Source: a bacterium (lineage in GTDB: Bacteria; Myxococcota; UBA727; JAUIJE01). From it: a stretch of DNA of 64,000 nucleotides. Of the stretch, positions 6,709 to 63,259 are shown piece after piece. Under the pieces are notes generated by a model, which made no database searches, was not told the DNA's origin, and saw nothing but the letters and a program-made list of their open reading frames with translations. Position numbers and translations under genes: made by a program. Every line of letters starts with the position of its first letter. Positions within the stretch are counted from its first letter, which is position 1. The DNA lies in the NCBI GenBank assembly GCA_030431455.1, contig JAUIJE010000005.1, positions 310,001 through 374,000 of the forward strand. Reading direction: 5' to 3'.

Positions 6709-7400
6709 CGGTACCCCTGCAGGTCAAAGCGCAGCTCACGCTGAAACTTGCCGCCGATCTCGCGCTTGCCGTCGCGGAGCTCTTCGGGGCTCGGGGTGCG
6801 GAACTTCCACTGCCGGATGCGCACGCGGGTCGCATCGGGGAAGTCCTCGGCCGCGTGCCGTGCGATCCACTTGCCGAACGTCGACCACCGACGGTCGTAG
6901 CGTTTCCAGCCGTGCAGGAAGATGATGCGCCGGATGCGGTGGTGGTCAAACGTATCGCGCATCCAGGTGTACTCGTCGGACCGGCCCACGTAGACCGGGC
7001 GCCAGATGCCGTCCTGCTCGACCTCGATGAACAGCCGGACCGGATAGCGGTGGGGCGCCGAGAACATCCGCCAACTTTGCCGCGCCCCCGTCCAGTTCAT
7101 GTAGGGCATGAACGGCCACAGCACCCAGCGGCGCACCTCGAGGATGGCCTTGGACGCATCCCACAAGAAATCACGGAACTCCACGTCGTTCCAGGTGAAC
7201 CCAATGCTTCTGGAGCGTTCGGCCCACATGTGCATCTCGTTCTTGACGCTGGGGTCATCCCACGAGCTCTTCTGGAGCGCGCCTTGGGGCGCCGGGAACG
7301 CCATCAGACACACCGCACAGATGTGAAACAGGATCAGCGCGGTCCGGATGTGGGGCCACCACCCGCGAAAGCCTTCGGGCCGTTGTTGCTCAGGGCTCAT
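6705..7400 (-). CDS. HTTM-associated membrane-anchored protein
   Basis: A 231-residue protein with one N-terminal membrane helix (about 20-35, ALILFHICAVCLMAF) and a soluble domain rich in Trp, Arg and Tyr (WRMFSAPHRYPVRLFIEVEQ, then a charged C-terminus). I do not know a named family, but similar one-helix proteins often sit beside HTTM genes, and here both ends overlap neighbours by 4 bases (upstream lipoprotein and downstream HTTM gene). Tight coupling suggests it forms a complex with the HTTM protein (inference). Confidence 0.75.
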   Translation of the reverse strand: MSPEQQRPEGFRGWWPHIRTALILFHICAVCLMAFPAPQGALQKSSWDDPSVKNEMHMWAERSRSIGFTWNDVEFRDFLWDASKAILEVRRWVLWPFMPYMNWTGARQSWRMFSAPHRYPVRLFIEVEQDGIWRPVYVGRSDEYTWMRDTFDHHRIRRIIFLHGWKRYDRRWSTFGKWIARHAAEDFPDATRVRIRQWKFRTPSPEELRDGKREIGGKFQRELRFDLQGYR

Positions 7401-8827
7401 GCCGCGTCCCCCGCCCCACCGTCTTGGCCCGCGTCCAAAAGCCCGCCATCCCCCGCGCCCCCGTCAAGCCCCCCGTCGACGAGCGGGTCCCCCGCGTCCA
7501 CCCCCGCGTCGGGGGGCGGCAAGGGTTGGCAGGTGCCGAACACCGCCGCGCACGCGCTCGGGGTGGTGACAAAAAAGTCACTGGTCACGCACTCCACCCC
7601 GTTGCAGGGGCCGCACGGTTCGCCCTCGGGACAGACCAGGGGGTCGCACGCAACCTCGACCGGACCGGGGTTGTACAGCCCGATCTCGCGCGAGAACGCG
7701 CGGTCACAAAAATCCCCGTCGAGGCAGGCCCGGGACAGCGGCCCTTCGCCCCCCGCGAGGTCGGTGCTGCCATCCCCGTTGTAGTCAAACGCGTACTGCG
7801 AACAGAACGCGATGCAGATGCCGTCGTCGGGCCTTGGGCCCTGGATGTCCAGACACAGGGGCAAGGCCCCGTTGTCGAGGTCACGGTAAGGTTCGCGGTC
7901 GCAGAAATCGTGGTCGACGACCTCGTTGCACAGTTGCCCGGTGTTGAGCGGCAAGTCGTCGAGGCCGACATAGGGCGCGGCCACGCCGCACAGCCCGCGG
8001 GTGTGCACGCAGTAGTTTTGGTTCTGGACCGGGACGCAGCGATAGCCGTCCTCGTCGTGGCACGGACACCCCGGGGCGCTGGGGTCCTCGCAGAGCGCGG
8101 GGGGACAGGTCACGCGGCTGTCCGGGTCGAGGTCGTTCACCAGTTGGTAGTCGACGACCGAGGTCGTGATCCAGTCGAACAGGCACACGTCGTCGAACGT
8201 ACAACTGTCGTCGTCGGCGTCACCGAACGTGCAGGTGTCGCGACACCGCATCGCCTCCACCACCGCCACCCCGTCGGGGCCGGCGGTGACCTCCGAGGCG
8301 GCGCAGGCCCGGCCCAGCGCGCAGGCGTCCGGGTCCTCGAACGCAAAACACACCCCGTCGCGCACGTACTGGATCGGCGCACACGCCGTCGCCACCCACT
8401 GGGTCGTCGTGGGGTCGAGCACGGTTTGGCAGCTCTCGAACTCGTCGCACACCTCGGGCACCTCGACCACGAGGTTGCCGTCGAGCACGTAGCAGTCGCG
8501 CCGACAGATGCGCTGCAGGGGGTCGGCGATGTCCTGCAGGCACGACAGCCCGGCCGCGCACGGGTCGTCCACGGTGCAGACCTCACCTTCGAGACGGATG
8601 CCGACCACGGCCGCGTCGGGGGGCCCCGCGTCCAGACCCGCGTCCGGTCGTGCCCCGCCCGCGTCGAGGCCGCCGTCAACGCCCCCGTCGAGACTTTGCG
8701 TGCCTCCGTCGACGGGCGGGCGGAACACGGGACCGGCGTCGCGGGACAGGTCGATGCGCGGCCCACACCCGGCGAGCGCCAGAAACGTCCAGGTCCACAG
8801 CCCGCGGGCCACCCAGGGGGTCGACAT
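7397..8827 (-). CDS. Cysteine-rich lipoprotein with GG/DG-rich linker
   Basis: A 476-residue predicted lipoprotein: MSTPWVARGLWTWTFLALAGC ends in a lipobox, with Cys21 as the lipidation site. A low-complexity linker of Asp, Gly, Ala and Pro follows, then a domain with many spaced cysteines (CTVDDPCAAGLSC, CHDEDGYRCVPVQNQNYC, CGPCNGVEC) typical of secreted disulfide-rich proteins of myxobacterial type. The C-terminus is again (V)DGG/DAG-rich. The start is set at the ATG at 8827; a longer frame upstream would bury the signal peptide. It is the first gene of the operon with the two HTTM-related genes and overlaps the next by 4 bases. Confidence 0.8.
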   Translation of the reverse strand: MSTPWVARGLWTWTFLALAGCGPRIDLSRDAGPVFRPPVDGGTQSLDGGVDGGLDAGGARPDAGLDAGPPDAAVVGIRLEGEVCTVDDPCAAGLSCLQDIADPLQRICRRDCYVLDGNLVVEVPEVCDEFESCQTVLDPTTTQWVATACAPIQYVRDGVCFAFEDPDACALGRACAASEVTAGPDGVAVVEAMRCRDTCTFGDADDDSCTFDDVCLFDWITTSVVDYQLVNDLDPDSRVTCPPALCEDPSAPGCPCHDEDGYRCVPVQNQNYCVHTRGLCGVAAPYVGLDDLPLNTGQLCNEVVDHDFCDREPYRDLDNGALPLCLDIQGPRPDDGICIAFCSQYAFDYNGDGSTDLAGGEGPLSRACLDGDFCDRAFSREIGLYNPGPVEVACDPLVCPEGEPCGPCNGVECVTSDFFVTTPSACAAVFGTCQPLPPPDAGVDAGDPLVDGGLDGGAGDGGLLDAGQDGGAGDAA

Positions 8828-8904
8828 GTGAAATGCGTATCGCTCTGCTGCACCGCGGTCAAAACCCGTCGCAAGGCCTGGGGTCGACGCGGTATACACA
8901 GGCC

Positions 8905-9720
8905 ATGGCCTCTTCCCCGCTGCGTTTCGTCCTGCCCCCCGCCCTGGGAGAAATCCGCGCCGGGGGCCTGGCCACCCAACTGCAGAGGTTCTTGACCGAA
9001 AAGCTAGACGACGAAGTGAACGTGTACGTCGCCCCCGATTACGCCGCGGTCGAGGACGACCTGCTGTTCGGCTCGGCCGATGCCGCCTGGGGCCCGCCCA
9101 GCGTCTGTGCCCGCCTGCAATCGGCGGGGGGCCGGTTCTTGCTGCACGCGGTCCGGCGCGGGGCCTCGCGGTACCGCGCGGGCTTGGTGTGCCGCAAGGG
9201 CGAAGGCCCGAGTCTCGACGACGTCACCGGCCTGCGCGCGGCGTGGGTGAGCCCGGACTCCACCGCGGGGTTTTTGCTCCCGCGCCAGTGGTTTCGCGAT
9301 CGTGGCATCGACGTGGACACCGCGTTCGACGACGTGCGGTACCTCGGCAGCTACCTCGCCGCGGTGCGGGCGGTGCTGCACGGCGAGGCCGACCTCACCG
9401 CGGTGTTCGCCAGCGTCGAGGACGCGGACACCCCCTACACCGCCCTCGACGAGCTCTCGCCCGAGGAGCAGGACAAGCTCGAGATTTTCGCCTACACCGC
9501 CGAACGGTTGAACGACGGCATCGTGATCGCCCCCGACTGCGACCGCGCCCGGCTCGAGTCGCTGCGCGACCTGCTGCGCCACGCCCACGACAGCGACGAT
9601 GGACGCGAAGTCTTGCGCGCGGTGTTCAACGCCGATCGCCTGGTGCCCACCGACGCGGCCGCCTACGCCGCCATCTACGAAGCCAGCCTCGAGGGCGCGC
9701 CGGTCCCCGAGACCGACTGA
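8905..9720 (+). CDS. PhnD-like phosphate/phosphonate-type substrate-binding protein, no signal peptide
   Basis: A 271-residue protein with the layout of a periplasmic binding protein of the PhnD/SsuA type: an N-terminal FVLPPALGEI strand, a LLFGSADAAWGPPSVCARL segment, the hinge AAWVSPDSTAGFLLPRQWF and a second lobe DVRYLGSYLAAVRAVLHGEADLTAVF. The sequence begins directly with the first strand and has no signal peptide, and no ABC permease or ATPase lies nearby. It may be a cytosolic sensor or an orphan binding protein rather than a transporter subunit (inference). The ATG at 8905 is the only start that fits the domain. The gene diverges from the Cys-rich lipoprotein. Confidence 0.78.
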   Translation: MASSPLRFVLPPALGEIRAGGLATQLQRFLTEKLDDEVNVYVAPDYAAVEDDLLFGSADAAWGPPSVCARLQSAGGRFLLHAVRRGASRYRAGLVCRKGEGPSLDDVTGLRAAWVSPDSTAGFLLPRQWFRDRGIDVDTAFDDVRYLGSYLAAVRAVLHGEADLTAVFASVEDADTPYTALDELSPEEQDKLEIFAYTAERLNDGIVIAPDCDRARLESLRDLLRHAHDSDDGREVLRAVFNADRLVPTDAAAYAAIYEASLEGAPVPETD

Positions 9721-22098: not shown

Positions 22099-23376
22099 TC
22101 AAGGGTGGTCGTAGCGCTCGACCGTGACCACCGGCGAAGAGTCGTCGGCGGTGGCCGAGCCGTTGATCACCATCGCGCCCTCCCCGGGCAAGGTGATCAC
22201 CGCGGCGTGACCACGCCCGCGCGACATCGCCGCCGCCTCGGTGAACACCCCGGTGTCGGGGTCGTAAAGCTCCACCGCGGGCACCGCGAGGTCGGCGTCG
22301 TTGAACCCGCCGACGACCATCAACAACCCGGTGTCGAGGGTGACCACGGTGTGGCCGTACCGCGGCACCCGCATGCGCTCGCCCGCGGTCCAGCTGTCGG
22401 TGGCCGGATCGTACAGCTCCGAGGTGCCGAGCACCGCGTCCTGCCCGGCCACCTCGGTCTTGCCCCCGAGGATGAGCACGCGCCCGTCGGCGAGCAGGGT
22501 CGCGGTCAGCTCCGACCGACCGTCGCTCATCGCCGCCACGGTGGTGCCGTCACCGGCCGCAGGGTCGAGGACCTCCACCGACGACAGCGGCGTGCCCGCG
22601 TTGTTGATGCCGCCGAAGACGTACACTTTGCCGCCCACAAACGCGGTCGCGAACTCCGAGCGCGCGGTGTCCAGGGCCAAGCCGGACAAGGTCCGCCACT
22701 CCCCGGCCTCGAGCTCCTCGACGCTGCCGAGCACCGCGCCGGTCTCGGTCTGGCCCCCGATCGCCCAGAACCGGCCGCTGCCCACCTCGAGGGCGGCGTG
22801 CCCGATGCGCGGCCGCTGAAGAGCGCCCACCTCGGCCCAAGTGTCCTGGTCGGCCCGGTACAGCTCCGCCACCGGCTCGAACACGTCGTCGTTGCCCACG
22901 CCGCCGACCACCACCACGCGGTTGCCGGCCAAAGGCGAGGCCACGTGGCCAAACCGCGGCTTGATGCTGCCGTTGGACTGGGCCCACCCGTCGTCGGGGT
23001 CGAAAATCCACGCATCGCCGACGGGACTGCCGCCGTTGCGACCGCCGACCGCCAACCAGCGCCCTTGGGTCAACGGCACCGCGGCCACCAGCGCGCGGGC
23101 CGGGGACAGACCGACGGTGAGCACCTCCCAGCGGGCGCACCGCCCCGACTCTTCGAGCAAAAACCCGGACGAACAGTCGTCGGTGCCCACGCAGACACCG
23201 TTGCCGCCGTTGTGCTGGCCATCGGGGCACGCGCCCCCGTCGGTCACCACCACGCCCCCGTCGGTCAGGCCGGGCCCCGGCGGCCACGGCCCCCCGAGAC
23301 CGTTGACCAGACCGCAGCCGGCCACGCCGGCGAGCAGCAACAGCAACACGCTCCCGTGCGTTCGACGCTCAGCCAT
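22099..23376 (-). CDS. Kelch-repeat lipoprotein
   Basis: A 425-residue predicted lipoprotein (MAERRTHGSVLLLLLAGVAGC, lipobox LAGVAGC with Cys21). A short Gly/Pro/Asp linker with a disulfide-rich patch (CPDGQHNGGNGVCVGTDDC) follows, then at least six Kelch-type repeats with the GG-then-LYDP pattern (LAVGGRNGG, VVVGGVGND, WAIGGQTET, YVFGGINNA, LILGGKTEV, MVVGGFNDA). These should form a beta-propeller on the cell surface or in the periplasm, usually a binding scaffold. It overlaps the upstream gene by 8 bases, so the pair is an operon. Confidence 0.85.
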   Translation of the reverse strand: MAERRTHGSVLLLLLAGVAGCGLVNGLGGPWPPGPGLTDGGVVVTDGGACPDGQHNGGNGVCVGTDDCSSGFLLEESGRCARWEVLTVGLSPARALVAAVPLTQGRWLAVGGRNGGSPVGDAWIFDPDDGWAQSNGSIKPRFGHVASPLAGNRVVVVGGVGNDDVFEPVAELYRADQDTWAEVGALQRPRIGHAALEVGSGRFWAIGGQTETGAVLGSVEELEAGEWRTLSGLALDTARSEFATAFVGGKVYVFGGINNAGTPLSSVEVLDPAAGDGTTVAAMSDGRSELTATLLADGRVLILGGKTEVAGQDAVLGTSELYDPATDSWTAGERMRVPRYGHTVVTLDTGLLMVVGGFNDADLAVPAVELYDPDTGVFTEAAAMSRGRGHAAVITLPGEGAMVINGSATADDSSPVVTVERYDHP

Positions 23377-24481
23377 TGTCGTCCCCCTCCTCTTCCAGCG
23401 AGAACGGGTTGAGCAAGATGCCCACCACCGCCAGCGCCGCGCCCCCGATCACCAACACCGGCCCCACCCCGTCGCCGAGGTCGAGTTCGTTGTTCAGGCT
23501 GGTGGGCGAAAACAGGTCAAAGAGCACGCCGGTGCCGGCCATCATCCCGCCCACGCCGACAAAACCCGCGATCCAGCCCCAGTACGCCCACGGGCCGAAG
23601 CCGGCCTCCGTTTGGGGCGCGGGCTTTTTCTCCTCGACCACGAAGCGGTCGTCGACTTTTTGCGCGGCGTCGTCGTCGTCATCGGGCTCGGACCACACCC
23701 GGGTCGACCCCTTGGCCGGCGCCTCGTCGACGGGCTCTTCTTCAAACTCATCCTCTGCGTACGCGGTGTCCTCGGGCTTGGTCTCGGCTTCGTCGTCCGG
23801 CGCCACCGCGTCGTCGTCGTCGTCGTCGTCGTCCGCGACCTCATCCTCACCGTCGTCATCACCGGACACCGCCGCGGGCGCGGGCTTGTCCGCCGCGGGC
23901 GCGGGCGCAGGCGCAGGCTTGTCCGCCGCGGGCGCAGGCGCAGGCGCAGGCTTGTCCGCCGCAGGCGCAGGCGCAGGCGCGTCCGCCGCAGGCGCAGGCG
24001 CAGGCTTGTCCGCCGCAGGCGCGGGCGCGGGCCGGGCCGCGGCGAGGGCATCGAGCAGCGGCTTCATCTGCGCGCCCAATGCCTTCTCGAGGCCGGCCAT
24101 GGTCGGGTCTTGCACCTGCGCGGATTTGACCACGCCGTCGGCGCCCACCGCGTACACCTCGACGACCACCGCCGCTGGTTTTTGAGCGGTGCTCACCCAC
24201 GTCTCCGAGAACAACACGTCGGCGCCGCCGGCTTTGGCCAAGGCCTTGTCCCGGCAGGCGGCGTCCTCGGCGCACTTTTTGTCGAACCGCTCACCCCCTT
24301 GCGCGGCGACCACGCTCGCGGTCCGGCCGCTGGCGGTGACGCCCTTGGCCACTGCTTTGGCGATGGCCTTGCCATCGATTTTTCCGCGCGGGGCGCTCTC
24401 GAAGACCGCCACCTTCGGCGCGGACTGTGAAAAGCCGGGCACGGCGAAGGTCAAGCTCAACAGGACGATCGCAAGTCGCAC
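23369..24481 (-). CDS. Exported protein with PAPAPAADK repeats and acidic linker
   Basis: A 370-residue protein with a signal peptide (MRLAIVLLSLTFAVPGFSQS). The first domain (about 20-145) has KVAVFESAPRGKIDGKAIAKAV and a CAEDAACRDKALAKAGGADVL segment resembling the TolB-like FlgO/CsgG-type domain often fused to Pro-rich tails. Next come six Pro-Ala-Lys repeats, an Asp-rich tract (one run of eight Asp encoded by a GTC repeat on the plus strand) and two C-terminal membrane helices (WGWIAGFVGVGGMMAGTGVLF and GPVLVIGGAALAVVGILL). Envelope function unknown; it is coupled to the Kelch lipoprotein that follows. Confidence 0.78.
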   Translation of the reverse strand: MRLAIVLLSLTFAVPGFSQSAPKVAVFESAPRGKIDGKAIAKAVAKGVTASGRTASVVAAQGGERFDKKCAEDAACRDKALAKAGGADVLFSETWVSTAQKPAAVVVEVYAVGADGVVKSAQVQDPTMAGLEKALGAQMKPLLDALAAARPAPAPAADKPAPAPAADAPAPAPAADKPAPAPAPAADKPAPAPAPAADKPAPAAVSGDDDGEDEVADDDDDDDDAVAPDDEAETKPEDTAYAEDEFEEEPVDEAPAKGSTRVWSEPDDDDDAAQKVDDRFVVEEKKPAPQTEAGFGPWAYWGWIAGFVGVGGMMAGTGVLFDLFSPTSLNNELDLGDGVGPVLVIGGAALAVVGILLNPFSLEEEGDDNG

Positions 24482-24801: not shown

Positions 24802-26175
24802 TCAGGGTTTGGCCCACCGGATGATGGCGTTGAGCTGCGGGTCCCCGACGTACACCCAGTCCGGGTCGGTGGCGAGGGTGCGCACGTGGTCGGATTCGCC
24901 GACGAGCTCGGGCGTGCTGCCGCTCACCCGGGCCAAGCGGTACACGCGGTCATCGGTGGTGCCGTAGTAGATGTACGCGCCGTCGAGCACGACGTCCTCG
25001 ATGGACGGTGTGCCCGGGCCCTCGTAGAGGGGATCGATCTCGGGCCACGCGAGCTGCCCGCTGCCGTCCTTGTTGACCTGGAGCAAGCCCGAGGTGGTGG
25101 TCACGAGGAGGACGTTCTCGACGGCCACGATTTGTTTGGCGCTGCCGTAGCCGTCGGGGATGGTGCCGATGTTGCCCGGCGTCGGCGTGGTCCCGCTGTT
25201 GCCGGCGAAGCGTTTGAGCACGTCGTACTCGGCGTAGTAGACGTAGGTCGGGTCGGCGGCCATGCGGTACCGCACGGAGATGTTTTGCACCGGGACCGGC
25301 GCCCCGGTCGGGCCGTTGGTCGCGTCGTGGGCCAGGCGCAGCACCTCGTCGTCGATGGCGTAGTACAGGTAGCCGCCTGAAAAGCCCACGCCGCTGATGT
25401 CGTAAATGTCATTGTCGGCCTCGCCGACCATGACCGCGTCGAGGGGCGTGCCCCCGAGGGGCACCGCCCAGATCTCTTCGGGGTCGTATTCCTTGTGGTT
25501 GGCGAACGCCAACCAGTTGCCCTCGACCACCAGGTACATCGGGTCCTCCAGCCCCACCGAGAGGTTGCGCAGGGTCAACGGGTCGGCTCTATCGAACGCG
25601 ATGACCCCGCCCCCGTCGGACCCGCCCTGGTCAGAGTTGCCGAACAGCACCATGTCCCCGATGACAAGCATGTCGTTGGGAAAGCCCTGGCCGGTGACCA
25701 AGCCATTGTTGTTGCACAGCCCGTTGGAACACCCGCCCGGGGAGCAGGGGTTGTTGCACATGCCGCAGTGGTTCGGGTGGCCCGCGGTCGACACGCACAG
25801 GCCCGCGCACATGGTCAGCGGACAATCACCATCGCCGTCGCCATCCCCGTCTCCGTCGCCATCCCCGTCGCCGTCGCCATCGCCGTCTCCGTCGCCATCC
25901 CCGTCCCCATCGCCATCGCCATCTCCGTCGCCATCCCCGTCGCCGTCGCCATCCCCGTCGCCGTCGCCATCCCCGTCGCCGTCGCCGTCGCCATCCCCGT
26001 CTCCGTCCCCGTCGCCACTGCACTGGCTGGCATCGCTCAAGCAGGTCTGGGTCGCCTCACAACACGTCTGGCCGGGGCCACAGGGACACGGGGCCCCGTC
26101 CTGGTTGAGCAAACACCCGGCCGCGGACAGAGCCCACACCGTCAACCACACCAACGCCCAAGACCACCGGGTCAT
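24802..26175 (-). CDS. Lipoprotein with (GD)n spacer and beta-propeller-like domain
   Basis: A 457-residue predicted lipoprotein (MTRWSWALVWLTVWALSAAGC, lipobox SAAGC). After a small Cys-rich knot (CPCGPGQTCCEATQTC) there is a spacer of about 33 Gly-Asp pairs, then a second Cys cluster (MCAGLCVSTAGHPNHCGMCNNPC) and a long C-terminal domain of repeated strands (NDMLVIGDMVLFGNSD, MYLVVEGNWLAFANH, YIYYGTTDDRVYRLA) resembling a six-bladed or YVTN-like propeller. The spacer could bind Ca2+ and hold the propeller away from the membrane (inference). It follows the caspase-like gene by 24 bases and ends the sigma-factor operon. Confidence 0.82.
   Translation of the reverse strand: MTRWSWALVWLTVWALSAAGCLLNQDGAPCPCGPGQTCCEATQTCLSDASQCSGDGDGDGDGDGDGDGDGDGDGDGDGDGDGDGDGDGDGDGDGDGDGDGDGDGDGDGDGDGDGDGDCPLTMCAGLCVSTAGHPNHCGMCNNPCSPGGCSNGLCNNNGLVTGQGFPNDMLVIGDMVLFGNSDQGGSDGGGVIAFDRADPLTLRNLSVGLEDPMYLVVEGNWLAFANHKEYDPEEIWAVPLGGTPLDAVMVGEADNDIYDISGVGFSGGYLYYAIDDEVLRLAHDATNGPTGAPVPVQNISVRYRMAADPTYVYYAEYDVLKRFAGNSGTTPTPGNIGTIPDGYGSAKQIVAVENVLLVTTTSGLLQVNKDGSGQLAWPEIDPLYEGPGTPSIEDVVLDGAYIYYGTTDDRVYRLARVSGSTPELVGESDHVRTLATDPDWVYVGDPQLNAIIRWAKP
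25826..26022. repeat. Imperfect hexanucleotide repeat encoding (Gly-Asp)n
   Basis: About 197 bases of near-tandem hexamers (plus-strand units such as GCCGTC, GCCATC, CCCGTC, TCCGTC) that code Gly-Asp on the minus strand. Third-position variation (GAC/GAT, GGC/GGG/GGA) shows selection on the peptide, not simple DNA slippage alone. Length is likely to vary between strains. It is not a CRISPR: there are no unique spacers. Confidence 0.9.
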
Positions 26176-26199
26176 GTCAGCTCCCTGATTCGCTATTCA

Positions 26200-27687
26200 C
26201 TATTCTTCGTCGCCGGGCCACAACAAGATCGTGCCCCCGGCGGCCACGCTCAACGCCGCCGCGCTCACCGCGCCCACCGCCGCCACCTGGGTGCCGACAA
26301 ACGCGAGGTTGCGCATGAAAATGTCCTCGCCCGACAGCCGGCCGGTCTCCGAGGTGAACGACACCCATTGCCACGCGGCCGCGCCGCCGAGGCCGGCGGC
26401 GGCGAACACCAGCGCCGCGCCCCCCACGAGCCCGCCGACGCCGAACACGGTGCCCCAGGGCATCACAAACTCCGAGTCCTCTTCCGGGGTCTCAAACGAG
26501 AACCGCGCCACCGCCTCGTCGCCGAAGGGCACGCTGAACACCAACGAGAATGCTTGGTGGGCCGCCCCCCGCCCCACCACCGCCGGCGGGTGAGCGGGAA
26601 TATCGGCCAAAGCGATCCGGCCCTCGACGGGGTGGACCTGGTACTCGAGATTGTCGTCGACCCGGCGCACGAACAACACATCGCGCTGGGGCCGGACCAT
26701 GGTCACGGGCTCTCCAGGGGCATTGTGAAAATCGGCCAGCCGAACCCCGGTGTCGGTCTCGATCAGATACCGCGCGGACAGGGCGCCATCGATCTCCAAA
26801 AAGCGGTCGGTGCTGCCCGACAAATCCACCAAGCCCCCGTCGTGGGTGGGGGGCCGGGCGTGGAGCTTGGGGCGGTACTTCTCGTTGGGGATGGCGGCGT
26901 TGGCGGTGGCCACAAACGCCGCGAGCTCGCGGTAGCTGATGGTGCCGTCGTGGTTGGCGTCGGCCGCGCCGTACAGACCGGAGCGCACCTCGTGGGAGAA
27001 CACCCCCGCCTGGAACGCGTCCCACTCGTGGCTTTCCGCCGCGGACGACGTGGACAGGATGAGACCGATGCGGCCCCCGTCGGAGAGGCTCTTGAGTTTC
27101 GAAAAGCCCGACGCGGGACGGCGGCTGCCCCCCGCGCCCCGCTCGTAGGCGAGGAAGTACGAGTTGCACGCGTCGATGATCATGTGGACGTTGTCGGCTT
27201 CGAGGGGCGCGACCACGCGCTCGAGCAGGTCGTTGCCGTACAGGCGGTCGTCCTCGAGGGTGATGTAGCCGCGGTTGTTCTCGACGCTGCCGTGGCCGGC
27301 GTAGATGAAATACAGCACCGTCTCCCGGCCGCGGGCCCGCGCCACCGAGATGTTGCCCCGGAGCAGCTTGACCACGGCCTCGAGCTCGGACCGGCGCGGC
27401 AGGTGCGCGACCCGCGCCGCGTCGACGTGCAGGCGCTCGGTCCCCTCGTCGAGGCGGGACAACAGATAGGTCTTGGCCCCCAACGTCTTGAACAGGTCGT
27501 AGTAGCGCGCGGCGTCGTCGTCGGCGTACTTGAGGGGGGCGAGGTCCGCGTCGAGCGGCGTGTTGGTGCCGATGATGAGCGCGAACGTCTCGACCTCCCG
27601 CTCAGAAGCCGAGACCGCGCTCGAGGTGAGCGCGGTGGCGGCGAACGCGGCGAGGGACAGGACAGAACCCAGCGTGTGATGACTCAT
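26200..27687 (-). CDS. Exported caspase-like (C14/metacaspase-type) peptidase, membrane-anchored
   Basis: A 495-residue protein with a signal peptide (to about residue 28), a caspase-fold domain with ALIIGTNTPLDADLAPLKYADDDA, the catalytic His132 in FIYAGHGS and Cys174 in IIDACNSYF, a stretch LSTSSAAESHEWD, and an EF-hand-like loop ADANHDGTISYRELA (243-254). A beta-rich middle region follows, then two hydrophobic C-terminal segments (about 420-445 and 460-490). Caspase-like enzymes cleave after basic residues and the EF-hand suggests Ca2+ control (inference). The active site would be periplasmic. It overlaps the upstream regulator gene by 4 bases. Confidence 0.85.
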   Translation of the reverse strand: MSHHTLGSVLSLAAFAATALTSSAVSASEREVETFALIIGTNTPLDADLAPLKYADDDAARYYDLFKTLGAKTYLLSRLDEGTERLHVDAARVAHLPRRSELEAVVKLLRGNISVARARGRETVLYFIYAGHGSVENNRGYITLEDDRLYGNDLLERVVAPLEADNVHMIIDACNSYFLAYERGAGGSRRPASGFSKLKSLSDGGRIGLILSTSSAAESHEWDAFQAGVFSHEVRSGLYGAADANHDGTISYRELAAFVATANAAIPNEKYRPKLHARPPTHDGGLVDLSGSTDRFLEIDGALSARYLIETDTGVRLADFHNAPGEPVTMVRPQRDVLFVRRVDDNLEYQVHPVEGRIALADIPAHPPAVVGRGAAHQAFSLVFSVPFGDEAVARFSFETPEEDSEFVMPWGTVFGVGGLVGGAALVFAAAGLGGAAAWQWVSFTSETGRLSGEDIFMRNLAFVGTQVAAVGAVSAAALSVAAGGTILLWPGDEE

Positions 27688-28442
27688 CGCGTTTCTCCCT
27701 GAATGCCCACGTCGGCGAGCAACCGGGCCCCCGCGGGGTCGGCGCCCCCTTTGAGCGCCTCCTCCACCTCGCGCACGGTGGTGGGGGCATCGACGAACAG
27801 ACCGTAGATTTTGAGGCGGCGGCCCCCAATGTCGTGGGTCACAGCCTCTTTGAGTTCGACAAGGTCCTTGCCTTCCCGGACGTCGATCGCGGCCGGGTTG
27901 TCGTCCGGATCCGTCCAGGCCGGGTGGTACCAGTAGATCTCGCCCGCGTCGTCCACGCCGTACACCATCAAACCGCGGTGACCGGCGGGGTTGCGGTAGG
28001 CGAACGCCAGCTCGTCGCTGGCCGCGATGTCCCCCTTGAGCAGCTCGGAGCCGTGCTGGTCCACGCGGAACACGAGCACCTCTTCGCTGAACGAGGGCTG
28101 GTCGCCGCCGCCCCGGGGGGAAAAGCCGTCGTCCTCGCCGCCGGGCACGACCAGGAACAGCACCGCGGCCGCGGCCGCGGCGACCCCGAGCAGGGGCGCG
28201 AAGAAGGTGCGCAACGACGCCGGTTGGGTCGCGGGCTGGCTCGTGGGCAGGCCCAGGCTTTGCGCGATGCGGTCTTGGGCCCCCGGCTTTTGGGGATCGA
28301 GGTCGGACAGGACCCGGCGGCGTTCGAAGTAGCGGGTCGCTTCCTCGTCGGCGATGAGGGCGTCGAACATGGTCGCCGACTCAGCCGCATTGGCGGTGCC
28401 TTTGAAGTAGCGATCGATCTGGGCGCGAAGTGAGGCGTTCAT
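27684..28442 (-). CDS. Single-pass membrane regulator (anti-sigma-like) with DUF4384-like periplasmic domain
   Basis: A 252-residue protein. The cytosolic N-terminus (1-75) is helical and acidic/basic (MNASLRAQIDRYFKGTANA) like the short sigma-binding part of FecR/anti-sigma proteins, although no zinc motif is present. One membrane helix follows (about 80-100, LLGVAAAAAAVLFLVV). The outer part (GDIAASDELAFAYRNPAGHR, GEIYWYHPAWTDPD, RRLKIYGLFVDAPT) has the layout of the DUF4384-like domains that accompany bacterial caspases. It starts in the ATGA overlap of the sigma factor and ends in one with the caspase gene, so the three are coupled. Role as anti-sigma is an inference from position. Confidence 0.75.
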   Translation of the reverse strand: MNASLRAQIDRYFKGTANAAESATMFDALIADEEATRYFERRRVLSDLDPQKPGAQDRIAQSLGLPTSQPATQPASLRTFFAPLLGVAAAAAAVLFLVVPGGEDDGFSPRGGGDQPSFSEEVLVFRVDQHGSELLKGDIAASDELAFAYRNPAGHRGLMVYGVDDAGEIYWYHPAWTDPDDNPAAIDVREGKDLVELKEAVTHDIGGRRLKIYGLFVDAPTTVREVEEALKGGADPAGARLLADVGIQGETR

Positions 28443-29095
28443 GCGCGCTCCTTGTCTTCGCCGCCGAGCAGATGACTCTCGAGCAACGAACGGATGCGAA
28501 ACTCTTGGTACGCGAGGGTGGTCCGGGACATGCCCAGCTCACGCGCGGCTTCTCGTTGCGAGCGCTGCTTCATGAAACGCTCGTCGAACACCGCCCGCCA
28601 TTTCTCGGGCAACACCTCGCTGCGGAAGGTCTGAATCAGCCGCCGGGCCTCGGTCTCTTGCACAAAACGATCTCCCTCGACCGACCCCGCCGCGCGCTCG
28701 AGATCCTCTGGCTCCGCCAGGTCCTCGCGCCCGTGTTTGCGCAGAATGTCGATGGCCCGATTGCGTGCAACCGTGCAAAGCCAGGCCCGGATGGACCCTC
28801 CCTTGTAGTTCTCCCGGAACGTCGGCTTTTGCACCATGCGCAAGAACACGTCGTGGGAACACGCCTCGGCGTCGACGTCGGACAGATACCGACGCGCCGC
28901 AGCATGCACCGCACTGAAGTGTTCGGTGTAGACCTCGGCGATGACCTCACGGTCACCGGCGTGAAAGCGAGCCAGCCAGGCGTCATCCTCTTTTTGACCG
29001 ATGGCCTGCTGTCCCACGTTCATCCCCCTCACCCAAAAGTGAGCAATGACGGATGCATAGCTCTGGATTTGGGCTTGTTCCATGGGGGTGTTCAT
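28439..29095 (-). CDS. ECF-type RNA polymerase sigma factor
   Basis: A 218-residue sigma factor: region 2 has FHAGDREVIAEVYTEHF, DAEACSHDVFLRMV and IRAWLCTVARNRAIDILRKHGRE; region 4 has LPEKWRAVFDERFMKQRSQREAARELGMSRTTLAYQE, a helix-turn-helix. Start choice is uncertain: the longest frame begins at 29095 with GGAG directly against the ATG; an in-frame ATG 12 bases inside has the same GGAG at 12 bases, and another at 29023 has GAGG close by. ECF factors usually autoregulate their own operon, here four genes. I do not see a promoter motif clear enough to call. Confidence 0.88.
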   Translation of the reverse strand: MNTPMEQAQIQSYASVIAHFWVRGMNVGQQAIGQKEDDAWLARFHAGDREVIAEVYTEHFSAVHAAARRYLSDVDAEACSHDVFLRMVQKPTFRENYKGGSIRAWLCTVARNRAIDILRKHGREDLAEPEDLERAAGSVEGDRFVQETEARRLIQTFRSEVLPEKWRAVFDERFMKQRSQREAARELGMSRTTLAYQEFRIRSLLESHLLGGEDKERA

Positions 29096-29268
29096 CTCCT
29101 TTCACTCGAAACGGCAAATCTGGTGGGGGTGGACGAACGGTCGGTCACATGACGGAGCCGGCGCACACATCAACAATCACTTACATAGGTAGGTTCGCCC
29201 GGAACACCCTAAAAAACCTCGACTTTTGCCTCCCCAAACGGTTTAGCCTGCGGCCCAGGAGGTCGCCG

Positions 29269-60786: not shown

Positions 60787-62025
60787 TTAGACCGCGACCC
60801 GCCGGCGCTCGCAGAACCGCAGCATCTTTTTCAAGCCTTGGACCTGAATCTGGCGGACCCGCTCGCGAGACAGGGAATAGCTCTTGCCGATCTGCTCCAG
60901 GGTCTCGTCCTGGTCCCCCACCAGCCCGAACCGCCGCTCGATGATGTCCACCTCCATCGGCGAGAGGTACTTGAGGATGCGGCGGACGTGGCTGGCCTGG
61001 TCGACGTCGACCACCGCCTGGTCGGGCAGCGGGTTTTTGCGGTCGGCGATGGTCTCGGACACGGTGCGATCCTCTTCGCCGCCGATGGGCTCGTCGAGGC
61101 TCACCGGCTCGCGGGGCACCGCGCGCCGAATCTCTTCGATCTTCTCGACCGGTTGCGACAACAGGTCGGCGATCTCCTCGATGGTGGGATCGCGGCCGGT
61201 CATCTGGGCGAGCTCGCGCGTCGCCTTGGCCACCTCGCGGCGGGCGTCGAAGATGTGCACCGGCAATCGAACCTGCGCGCCCTTGTTCATGATCGCGCGC
61301 TCGATCGCCTGGCGGATCCACCAGTGGGCGTACGTCGAGAACCGGAAGCCACGGCGGTGATCAAAACGGTGCACGGATTTGATCAGGCCGAGATTGCCCT
61401 CTTGGATGAGGTCGATGAGCGGCATCCGGTAGTGGTGAAACCGGCGGGCGACGCTGACCACCAACCGGAGGTTGGCGTTCACGAACCGGTTGCGGATGTC
61501 CTTGGCCTTTTTGCGCAGCACCCGCGCGGCGGCGTGCGACGCGATGCGGTGCTTGGCCGCGGCCGCGGTCTTGTCCTCGCCAAAGGTGGACAGCCGCTCG
61601 ACCACGTCTTCGATCAGGGTGCGGTCGTCGTCAAAGGTGCGCAGGGCTTCGGCGATGAGCCGGATGTCCTTTTTTACCCGCGGGGTCTCTTTGACCACGC
61701 TGGCTTTTTTGAACCGCTTCTGATGCCTCAAGATCGCTTTTTGGGCCTCGGGCTCGAACGCGCGCTTGCTCTCGTCTTCGGCGACCAGGACCCAGTCGAG
61801 CACGACCTCCACGCCGAGGAGGGCTTCCCAGGTGGCCACCTCCGTGTCGAAGAGGTTCTTGGCGTACTCGATCTCCTCTTCCGCGGTGAACAGCGGGATG
61901 CCGCCCAGCGACGCGAGGTAGTCGCTCAACGCCTCGTCGCGGCCACGCTTTTCGCTTTTGGCTGCGGGGGCAGGTTGTTTTTGTTTCTCGTCGGACTTCG
62001 CCGGTTCGACTTTGGTCGCCACCAT
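60787..62025 (-). CDS. Sigma-70 family sigma factor (group 2-like)
   Basis: A 412-residue sigma factor with region 1.2 (DEALSDYLASLGGIPLFTAEEE), region 2 (VNANLRLVVSVARRFHHYRM, DLIQEGNLGLIKSVHRFDH, FRFSTYAHWWIRQAIERAIMN), region 3 (HIFDARREVAKATRELAQMTG) and region 4 (YLSPMEVDIIERRFGLVGD, then SLSRERVRQIQVQGLKKML). An Ala/Lys-rich N-terminus and a charged insert of about 90 residues between regions 1.2 and 2.1 distinguish it from a plain RpoS. It may belong to the SigB/SigC/RpoS-like group of myxobacteria (inference). The ATG at 62025 follows GGAGGA. Confidence 0.88.
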   Translation of the reverse strand: MVATKVEPAKSDEKQKQPAPAAKSEKRGRDEALSDYLASLGGIPLFTAEEEIEYAKNLFDTEVATWEALLGVEVVLDWVLVAEDESKRAFEPEAQKAILRHQKRFKKASVVKETPRVKKDIRLIAEALRTFDDDRTLIEDVVERLSTFGEDKTAAAAKHRIASHAAARVLRKKAKDIRNRFVNANLRLVVSVARRFHHYRMPLIDLIQEGNLGLIKSVHRFDHRRGFRFSTYAHWWIRQAIERAIMNKGAQVRLPVHIFDARREVAKATRELAQMTGRDPTIEEIADLLSQPVEKIEEIRRAVPREPVSLDEPIGGEEDRTVSETIADRKNPLPDQAVVDVDQASHVRRILKYLSPMEVDIIERRFGLVGDQDETLEQIGKSYSLSRERVRQIQVQGLKKMLRFCERRRVAV

Positions 62026-62140
62026 GATCTTCCTCCACATGGGCCTTCGCCTGGGGAGGGATTTGCAAGAGTCCGGCCGATCTGTGTGTGCGCCCCTGGC
62101 AAAGGTGGACGACGCACGGCCACGATGTAGGCCAATGTAG

Positions 62141-63259
62141 CTACACGTCGGAGCTGTCGCTACCTGCGGCCCGGGCCAGGTCGGCGCCGTCGACGAGCCC
62201 AGCCCCGAACACTTCCCGAAGAAAAACAGTGGCATACGCGCCCTTCGGGAGGGCAAACGACAGTGTCGCACGCGGGCCCTCGACCTGCACCGAAAGCGCC
62301 TCGGGCCAGATCTGGATCGGGCGCCGGGCCCCGGTGTCGAACGCGGGGTGGGCCATCAGATCTTTGATGTCCTCAGCCAACCCGTCCGCTGATCGCGACT
62401 CCCATGTCAGAGCAGCGCCGCGCGCGGGTCGCATTTCCGCCCCGGGCATCGGGCCCGTGATCGCGACCTCGGCGGCGTCGAGGCGGGGCTGGTCGGCGGC
62501 GGGGTCGTCACAAAAAAACGTGGCCCGGCCCCCGCGGCGGGCCATCACATCGCCCTCCAGCACCGTCGAGAACAGCTCGTCGTCGAGCCGCGCGCGCAGC
62601 CACCGGTTGAACACCACCGACTGCAGCGCGCTCACCCAAAACCCCTCGCGTTTGGTGCGCGCGCGCTTGGGCCGCCGGATGAAGCGCAGGGCTTGGCGCA
62701 CGGTGCGCCCATCGGGGCCGAAGCGCTGGGCCCCAAAGCCATTGGGTAGGCCCGTGTGGGCCAGCGCGGCCGCGCGTTGGTCGATGGTGTGCGCGTCGAG
62801 CGGGGCTTCGGCCTCGAGCCCCACGGTGAACCGGTTGGCGCGCAAAAACCCCATGCGCAGCTTCTTTTCGTGGCGGGCGGCGCGCAGCACCGTGAAGCGC
62901 GCGTCCTCGGCCAGGCCGGCCCCTTCGTCGGGCGCGGCCTGGGCGGGAATCGAGACCCACTGCCGGGTGATGCCGTGCTTGTCCTTGCGGCCGGCGAGGC
63001 CGATGTCGCGGTCTTTGACCCCGTACCGGGCCTTGAGCGCCTGCGACAAATCCGGCGTGGTCGCGCCGCGCTTTTCCACGAACAAGAACAGGTGGGTGCC
63101 CTGCCCGGACGGCTCGAACAGGGGCACCTCCTCGACGATGAAGTCCTCGGGGCGGGGGCGCATCACCACCCGGCCGAGGTCGAGGTCAGGCAACAGGCGC
63201 GGCGCCCCTGCGAGCGCCGCGGCCACCCACGCGTCCTCGTCGCGGGGGCTGTCGCTCAA
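62141..63259 (-). CDS. truD: tRNA pseudouridine(13) synthase TruD
   Basis: A 372-residue TruD: PEDFIVEEVPLFEPSGQGTHLFLFVEKRG, the catalytic Asp93 in GLAGRKDKHGITRQ, the conserved RANRFTVGL and NGFGAQRFG. The insert domain that is typical of TruD is present (about 150-310). The TTG start at 63259 overlaps the stop of the coiled-coil gene before it (TTGA), which is in keeping with a coupled operon. Confidence 0.9.
   Translation of the reverse strand: MSDSPRDEDAWVAAALAGAPRLLPDLDLGRVVMRPRPEDFIVEEVPLFEPSGQGTHLFLFVEKRGATTPDLSQALKARYGVKDRDIGLAGRKDKHGITRQWVSIPAQAAPDEGAGLAEDARFTVLRAARHEKKLRMGFLRANRFTVGLEAEAPLDAHTIDQRAAALAHTGLPNGFGAQRFGPDGRTVRQALRFIRRPKRARTKREGFWVSALQSVVFNRWLRARLDDELFSTVLEGDVMARRGGRATFFCDDPAADQPRLDAAEVAITGPMPGAEMRPARGAALTWESRSADGLAEDIKDLMAHPAFDTGARRPIQIWPEALSVQVEGPRATLSFALPKGAYATVFLREVFGAGLVDGADLARAAGSDSSDV

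Follow-up and report, generated by a model that had tools for sequence, protein, structure and literature searches.

Caspase homologues are plentiful in bacteria, where they are mostly treated as enzymes of cell death, and to our knowledge most of them have no known substrates. What does such an enzyme do when its gene is coupled to that of a sigma factor? The question is raised by a locus in a 64,000-nucleotide stretch of DNA from a member of the Myxococcota (GCA_030431455.1, contig JAUIJE010000005.1, positions 310,001 to 374,000; hereafter the window), in which genes for an extracytoplasmic function (ECF) sigma factor (SIG), a membrane regulator (REG), a caspase-like peptidase (CAS) and a lipoprotein (LIP) follow one another on the minus strand. 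We propose, with a probability of roughly 0.6, that CAS is the site-1 protease of its own anti-sigma factor REG and thereby frees SIG for a local, self-amplifying regulon. All coordinates of these genes are minus-strand positions in the window.

Conservation of the gene set

All four genes were located in the window, on contig C1 of a 7.7 Mb genome. They encode proteins of 218 aa (SIG, 28439..29095), 252 aa (REG, 27684..28442), 495 aa (CAS, 26200..27687) and 457 aa (LIP, 24802..26175). SIG and REG overlap by 4 bases (28439-28442), as do REG and CAS (27684-27687), and a gap of 24 bases (26176-26199) separates CAS from LIP; the four leftward genes, overlaps and gap described in the original prediction for this window agree with these coordinates.

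Nine matches to CAS were found in the same genome, and at least one was found in 39 of the 58 sampled relatives. When family models for REG and SIG were applied to 41 caspase loci from whole genomes, REG was found at 39 and SIG at 36 of them, and three of the five loci lacking SIG were at contig ends. A named collection, obtained with a pattern from an 11-sequence CAS subset, contained 80 loci from Myxococcus, Archangium, Hyalangium, Pyxidicoccus and many metagenome-assembled genomes. REG adjoined CAS at all 80 loci, and SIG was there too nearly always where the contig reached. The majority of the junctions in the module were 4-base overlaps. SIG-REG was divergent from CAS in six named loci, and an extra protein gene was present between SIG and REG at loci L042 and L043. 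An apparent SIG-REG fusion at locus L094 looks like a frameshift or an assembly artefact and was rejected. Since SIG-REG-CAS recurs across the phylum, the gene order is far beyond chance; the four-gene set is an ancient module of Myxococcota, and the conserved linkage on which the original prediction depended was found for SIG, REG and CAS. Furthermore, seven more caspase genes of the same genome (loci L039-L045) each have a sigma and an anti-sigma-like gene nearby, so that several parallel, probably insulated circuits would coexist.

Operons of this type have been described before. In the operon section of their paper, Asplund-Samuelsson et al. (2012, PMC3501461) reported a sigma-70 factor in the operons of four of the five M. 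xanthus metacaspases, and sigma-70 and metacaspase operons also in Anaeromyxobacter, Haliangium, Sorangium, Ralstonia and Fibrobacter. This is the same phenomenon, and within that section there is no mention of an anti-sigma factor, promoter, EF-hand, cut site, lipoprotein regulon or mechanism.

REG as an anti-sigma factor

REG had been described in the original prediction as a membrane regulator with one helix and a DUF4384-like outer domain. The description was sound as far as it went, but the anti-sigma identity of the protein had been missed. The REG family profile matched RsiW (1.7e-6) and the RslA-like 3hug, ChrR and DdvA structures. Among 35 REG relatives, 19 matched zf-HC2 and six matched DUF4384; REG of the window itself showed no DUF4384 match. 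An N-terminal HxxxCxxC zinc motif was present in 68 of 95 REG relatives. In the window REG the motif is absent and the zinc ligands are lost, with the helical domain kept (helices 3-13, 19-31 and 33-47), so that an anti-sigma domain (ASD) stands beside its cognate ECF gene. Zinc-less ASD proteins exist; we therefore retained the label "anti-sigma" for the window REG and dropped "zinc-binding". The fold search of REG against PDB gave no significant match (best E 0.028). One strong membrane helix was found in each REG; that of the window protein spans residues 81-99 by hydropathy and 75-98 in the model, and the DUF4384-like outer domain begins at about residue 121. On this profile evidence, the REG family is a family of membrane anti-sigma factors of the zinc-binding anti-sigma (ZAS) type. 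As a separate observation, the N-terminus of a 991-residue "CHAT domain-containing protein" (PDB 8rot and 8rw5) matched the anti-sigma profile (E 0.0016), and in this protein an anti-sigma domain may be naturally fused to a caspase-like domain.

In REG, the membrane helix and the outer domain are joined by a linker (residues 99-120), which was compared across the family. The linker is modelled with low confidence, the predicted local distance difference test (pLDDT) score being below 50 at residues 102-106. Column 110 was Arg or Lys in all 95 sequences, and the next best basic linker column reached 58%. The pattern [FW]xx[RK][GSA], counted free of the alignment, occurred in 68 of the 95 linkers, compared with a mean of 5.5 and a maximum of 13 in 1000 shuffles. 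It occurred in none of 22 control anti-sigma factors, a small and mixed set of myxobacterial zf-HC2 proteins without caspase linkage (Fisher 1.5e-10). The preferred residues were Phe, Trp or Leu at P4, Ala, Val, Pro or Ser at P2, Arg or Lys at P1, and Gly, Ser or Ala at P1'; in the window, the predicted site is Phe107-Ser-Pro-Arg110|Gly111 (FSPR|G; 28110..28124), next to the membrane. The site preference of the paracaspase MALT1 is LXP/SR|G (PMC4659944), with Ser, Ala or Pro at P2 and Gly at P1' (PMC6207715). By its residues, the REG linker site resembles the cut sites of MALT1.

A conserved site of this kind may also act without being cut: REG would inhibit CAS or present substrates to it via the DUF4384-like domain, and the Phe-x-x-Arg-Gly linker would be a pseudosubstrate or docking strand. 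In the prodomains of gingipains, inhibitory loops indeed put an Arg in the S1 pocket (PMC4357240). REG and CAS are translationally coupled, and the linker site is conserved and cleavage at it has never been observed. However, P1' is Gly, Ser or Ala, as in real MALT1 substrates, and the site lies next to the membrane, where anti-sigma factors are typically cut at site 1, as RseA is by DegS. We regard such a pseudosubstrate role as quite improbable and favour cleavage of the linker by CAS.

The caspase-like protease

CAS matched Pfam Peptidase_C14 (PF00656) at 5.5e-6, over the cut-off, and showed a caspase fold with the His/Cys dyad. Its layout comprises a signal-peptide-like N-terminus, the caspase domain, an EF-hand, a beta domain and two C-terminal transmembrane helices, and an export-signal-like N-terminus was found in 117 of 120 CAS proteins; an exported C14 peptidase with membrane anchors, as had been predicted, is thus in keeping with the sequence. 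Residues D58, H132, D172, C174, E221 and D243 were invariant in 103 of 103 sequences. Part of the named CAS set was gathered with a pattern including the Cys, but 39 whole-genome sequences were not, and these agree. The catalytic His132 is encoded at 27292..27294, and Asp172-Ala-Cys174, which carries a putative acidic S1 residue and the catalytic Cys, at 27166..27174. Thus the His132/Cys174 pair and the EF-hand loop lie where they had been placed, and they are invariant or nearly so; the homologues retain the pair.

The AlphaFold2 model of CAS had a mean pLDDT of 86.6. The closest PDB fold was the MALT1 paracaspase (E 1.3e-7, about 15% identity), with partial overlap (TM-scores 0.3-0.4), and a metacaspase and caspases were also matched. 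The S1 acids of MALT1 are D365, D462 and E500 (PMC4357240). Their probable counterparts in CAS are D58, D172 and E221, of which D172 is set by its distance from the catalytic Cys and D58 and E221 were placed by eye, giving an acidic S1 pocket as in C14B. Because these acidic S1 candidates are invariant, a basic P1 specificity is expected for CAS, as for metacaspases and paracaspases.

The EF-hand loop (residues 243-254, D-x-N-x-D-G-x-I-x-x-x-E; 26926..26961) has Asp at position 1 and Asp or Asn at position 3 in 103 of 103 sequences, and Glu at position 12 (Glu254) in all 102 having the column. It forms a single helix-loop-helix in the model (block pLDDT 97); the Pfam EF-hand score was below the cut-off, weak but in register. 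Ca2+ is likely a cofactor of CAS.

Among the basic positions of CAS, two stand out as the best conserved, and each is followed by Gly. Arg183-Gly184 (27136..27141), a candidate self-processing site, is at the edge of a disordered loop after the catalytic Cys (residues 185-198, pLDDT below 50), and position 183 is Arg or Lys in 103 of 103 sequences. Arg373-Gly374 (26566..26571), a candidate release site, lies ahead of the membrane anchors in a loop modelled with low confidence (block 371-380, pLDDT 57), and position 373 is Arg or Lys in all 100 sequences having it, with three gaps. Of 94 loci compared, 83 had the same residue, Arg or Lys, at REG110, CAS183 and CAS373 (72 all Arg, 11 all Lys). 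This covariation is suggestive only; as a formal proof it was rejected, since the independent changes are too few.

The sigma factor and its predicted promoter

SIG matched Sigma70_r2 with 40.1 bits (cut-off 24; 3e-10) and the superfamily model sigma70-ECF TIGR02937 with 65.8 bits (cut-off 42.9). It contains regions 2 and 4 only, region 4 being just below the Pfam cut-off. The assignment to the ECF sigma factors (group 4), already made in the original prediction, was consistent with these matches.

A predicted bipartite promoter, TTCGTCCA-N16-CGTT, was detected at 29110..29137, 14 nt before the start codon of SIG, and the motif also recurs before homologous sigma and lipoprotein genes. The spacing was 16 in 29 of 29 exact matches among 121 loci, a set in which some contigs were counted twice, and spacings of 14, 15, 17 and 18 gave none. 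In the 80 named loci and the window, 28 exact matches were found; as assigned by reading the listed products, 14 are before SIG, 12 are before a lipoprotein with PCPCxxGWxCC, and the remaining two face further predicted genes. Lipoprotein genes bearing the motif also occur in other positions, at L098, at L085 (divergent) and twice in L092, where two PCPC-type lipoprotein genes (7022-9352) have one exact copy each.

An M. xanthus strain with a 9.1 Mb genome has exactly two exact copies of the motif, both at the module locus, and a Pyxidicoccus genome likewise has two, both at its module locus. Three exact copies were found in the genome of the window: the one described above, a second within a called gene and a third with no gene in its vicinity. 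The last (C20:51416-51443) is intergenic, with no protein gene called close downstream, and could drive a small RNA or be due to chance. Exact or one-mismatch matches in this genome gave no convincing further regulon member, and the other caspase-sigma sets of the genome had no exact copy of the motif. Exact forms of the textbook GGAAC/GAAC-type ECF motifs were absent before the module sigma genes or present in only four loci, and when promoters of other subclades were sought by dyad search, all of the words obtained were either GC-rich or coding. We infer that SIG recognises TTCGTCCA-N16-CGTT and that its regulon is local, comprising the operon and the lipoprotein gene.

The same promoter logic is kept by the main rival explanation, in which the caspase is an output. 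Another protease, DegS- or signal-peptidase-like, would cut the anti-sigma factor on an envelope signal, and SIG would raise the levels of the caspase and the lipoprotein, which would have envelope or prey proteins as their targets or take part in regulated lysis. SIG, REG and CAS lie in one operon under one promoter, so that CAS would be made under sigma control, and the operon paper cited above proposed myxobacterial metacaspases as possible autolytic enzymes (PMC3501461). A CAS-LIP pair without SIG and REG also exists: at locus L038 (contig C21 of the same genome, about 125031-126509) an orphan CAS paralogue (60% identical) is followed by a PCPC-type lipoprotein gene, with no sigma or anti-sigma gene. 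However, the caspase as an output leaves unexplained both the universal paracaspase-like site in the anti-sigma linker and the Arg/Lys identity that tracks between this linker and the sites in CAS. We consider this explanation unlikely, although it deserves serious attention beside the proposal that CAS cuts REG.

The lipoprotein and neighbouring genes

LIP is a Cys-rich lipoprotein whose ectodomain is rich in repeats and possibly propeller-like. After the lipobox Cys21 it carries the Cys motif PCPCxxGxxCC...C...C (26020..26091), which is common to lipoproteins of M. xanthus, Archangium, Pyxidicoccus and others. The lipobox and the Cys motif are conserved and the ectodomain varies, with FG-GAP and fn3 repeats in M. 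xanthus and Ig-like repeats in Archangium. The Cys-rich lipoprotein had been recognised correctly; the 33 Gly-Asp pairs counted at that time were corrected to an uninterrupted run of 32 (residues 54-117; 25825..26016) and 34 in the whole protein. The run was not conserved in orthologous lipoproteins. Furthermore, (GD)7, searched as (GGN GAY)7, matched 4894 overlapping places in the genome (2526 forward and 2368 reverse), and the reversed control pattern had no match there. On both counts the run appears to be a generic linker. The use of (Gly-Asp)n linkers in this genome is remarkably extensive, and many of these linkers are found in lipoproteins.

These results bear on the Ca2+-controlled periplasmic caspase module of the original prediction, in which the EF-hand and the (GD)n lipoprotein are Ca2+ sensors and envelope Ca2+ is the signal. 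The EF-hand ligands are essentially invariant on a modelled helix-loop-helix, and Ca2+ is needed by, or stabilises, many metacaspases and gingipains (PMC4357240). However, Ca2+ binding by the (GD)n run as a specific feature was rejected, as the run is neither conserved nor unusual in its genome; moreover, the Ca2+ level of the periplasm often varies little, and a Ca2+ site is equally likely to be structural or to be a sensor. The genes that travel together and the exported C14 enzyme with its conserved EF-hand survive from that model, and an ECF-like promoter lies in front of the operon. The Ca2+-binding run does not survive; Ca2+ is a candidate for the signal, and the model as a whole seems improbable to us. 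With REG as an anti-sigma factor bearing a conserved Arg/Lys-Gly site near the membrane, the module becomes one of caspase-triggered sigma release.

Directly downstream on the same strand (22099-24481) two genes overlap by 8 bases; one encodes a secreted protein rich in Pro/Ala and Asp, the other a lipoprotein with kelch repeats. A second open reading frame of the window that matches the sigma-factor profile (60787-62271, minus strand; E 2.5e-29) is apparently another ECF sigma gene.

Discussion

Computation showed the gene linkage, the anti-sigma identity of the REG family, and the conservation of the dyad, the S1 acids, the EF-hand, the basic-Gly site and the promoter. From these we infer cleavage, the order of events, the topology, the signal and the role of LIP as follows. 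SIG would be held at the membrane by REG, and CAS, an exported, membrane-anchored, paracaspase-like and presumably Ca2+-binding protease, would be on the same side as the outer domain of REG. On activation, for which LIP and/or Ca2+ are candidate cues, CAS would cut the linker of REG after Arg110, close to the outer face of the membrane. Degradation of REG would then be completed by an intramembrane protease of the M50/RseP type and by cytosolic proteases, and SIG would be freed. M50 proteases are present in the genome; as they occur in nearly all genomes, this adds little weight. Free SIG would transcribe the sig-reg-cas operon and the lipoprotein gene(s) from the predicted promoter, giving local positive feedback, and CAS would probably also process itself at Arg183-Gly and Arg373-Gly.

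Several points weigh against this proposal. The conserved motif may be there for docking or for structure, though the linker is predicted to be disordered. Sigma binding by the window REG is expected from its relatives, and its zinc ligands are lost. The topology of CAS and REG was derived from hydropathy and family knowledge and not from a dedicated predictor. The Arg/Lys covariation goes back to few independent switches, 4-6 changes per site on the tree, and although independent pairs that differ show the same trend on average, their small number does not allow significance. Positive feedback by itself would leave the loop locked on, so that some restraint must exist. Finally, as the orphan pair at L038 shows, a caspase and a lipoprotein can be maintained in the absence of the switch; the promoter motif was looked for there and was not found.

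Sigma release by caspase-like proteases is not without parallel. Steens et al. reportedly described in 2024 a CRISPR-linked SAVED-CHAT/prokaryotic-caspase cascade with a sigma branch. In the type III-E system Csx29-Csx30-CASP-sigma (PMC10028731), a caspase-like TPR-CHAT protease cleaves the inhibitor of an ECF-type sigma factor of the same locus, and positive autoregulation has been proposed. That CHAT protease is cytosolic and RNA-guided, whereas the protease here is predicted to be exported and membrane-anchored and the inhibitor of the sigma factor is a membrane ZAS protein. CAS belongs to C14 and not to CHAT, and PADLOC, applied to the four proteins and not to the rest of the window, which was not searched for cas genes, found no defence family. 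The CalpL/CalpT/CalpS system (PMC11417357) is likewise a triplet of protease, anti-sigma factor and ECF sigma factor triggered by cleavage of the anti-sigma factor, but CalpL is a cytosolic Lon protease with a SAVED domain activated by cyclic oligoadenylate.

In regulated intramembrane proteolysis of ECF anti-sigma factors (RseA/DegS, RsiW/PrsW and RsiV/lysozyme; PMC4183432), a membrane anti-sigma factor with an outer domain undergoes site-1 and then site-2 cleavage, as would be expected here, and the REG profile matches RsiW; the known site-1 proteases, however, are serine proteases or belong to other types. In the literature searched, we found no clan CD cysteine protease with this function and no exported, membrane-anchored caspase as site-1 protease of a ZAS anti-sigma factor; few subscription papers and not the main ECF classification paper were covered, and absence is not proof. 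MALT1 (C14B) shares with CAS the best PDB fold, the acidic S1 residues and the preference for hydrophobic-x-(S/P/A)-R|G, but it is a eukaryotic, cytosolic protein with an Ig3 domain and a death-domain scaffold, whereas CAS has the EF-hand, the beta domain and two transmembrane helices. Sigma-metacaspase operons have thus been known since 2012 (PMC3501461), and the anti-sigma identity, promoter and cut site of the module were not found in the literature searched.

Taken together, these findings suggest a fuller picture, for which we see about even odds: a Ca2+-binding exported paracaspase that is a dedicated site-1 protease using a MALT1-type F-x-x-R/K|G site, that processes itself at two R/K-G sites with co-evolving P1 residues, and that is present in several insulated copies per myxobacterial genome, each with its own promoter. 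If true, the cleavage of REG by CAS would link ECF signalling, regulated proteolysis and the site rule of a paracaspase of human immunity, and would offer a compact, orthogonal protease-to-promoter circuit for engineering. Caspase-triggered transcription would then be an ancient mode of bacterial envelope signalling outside CRISPR. As the sequence data name a putative substrate, a bond (REG Arg110-Gly111) and a promoter, the role of the myxobacterial metacaspases becomes directly testable in M. xanthus.

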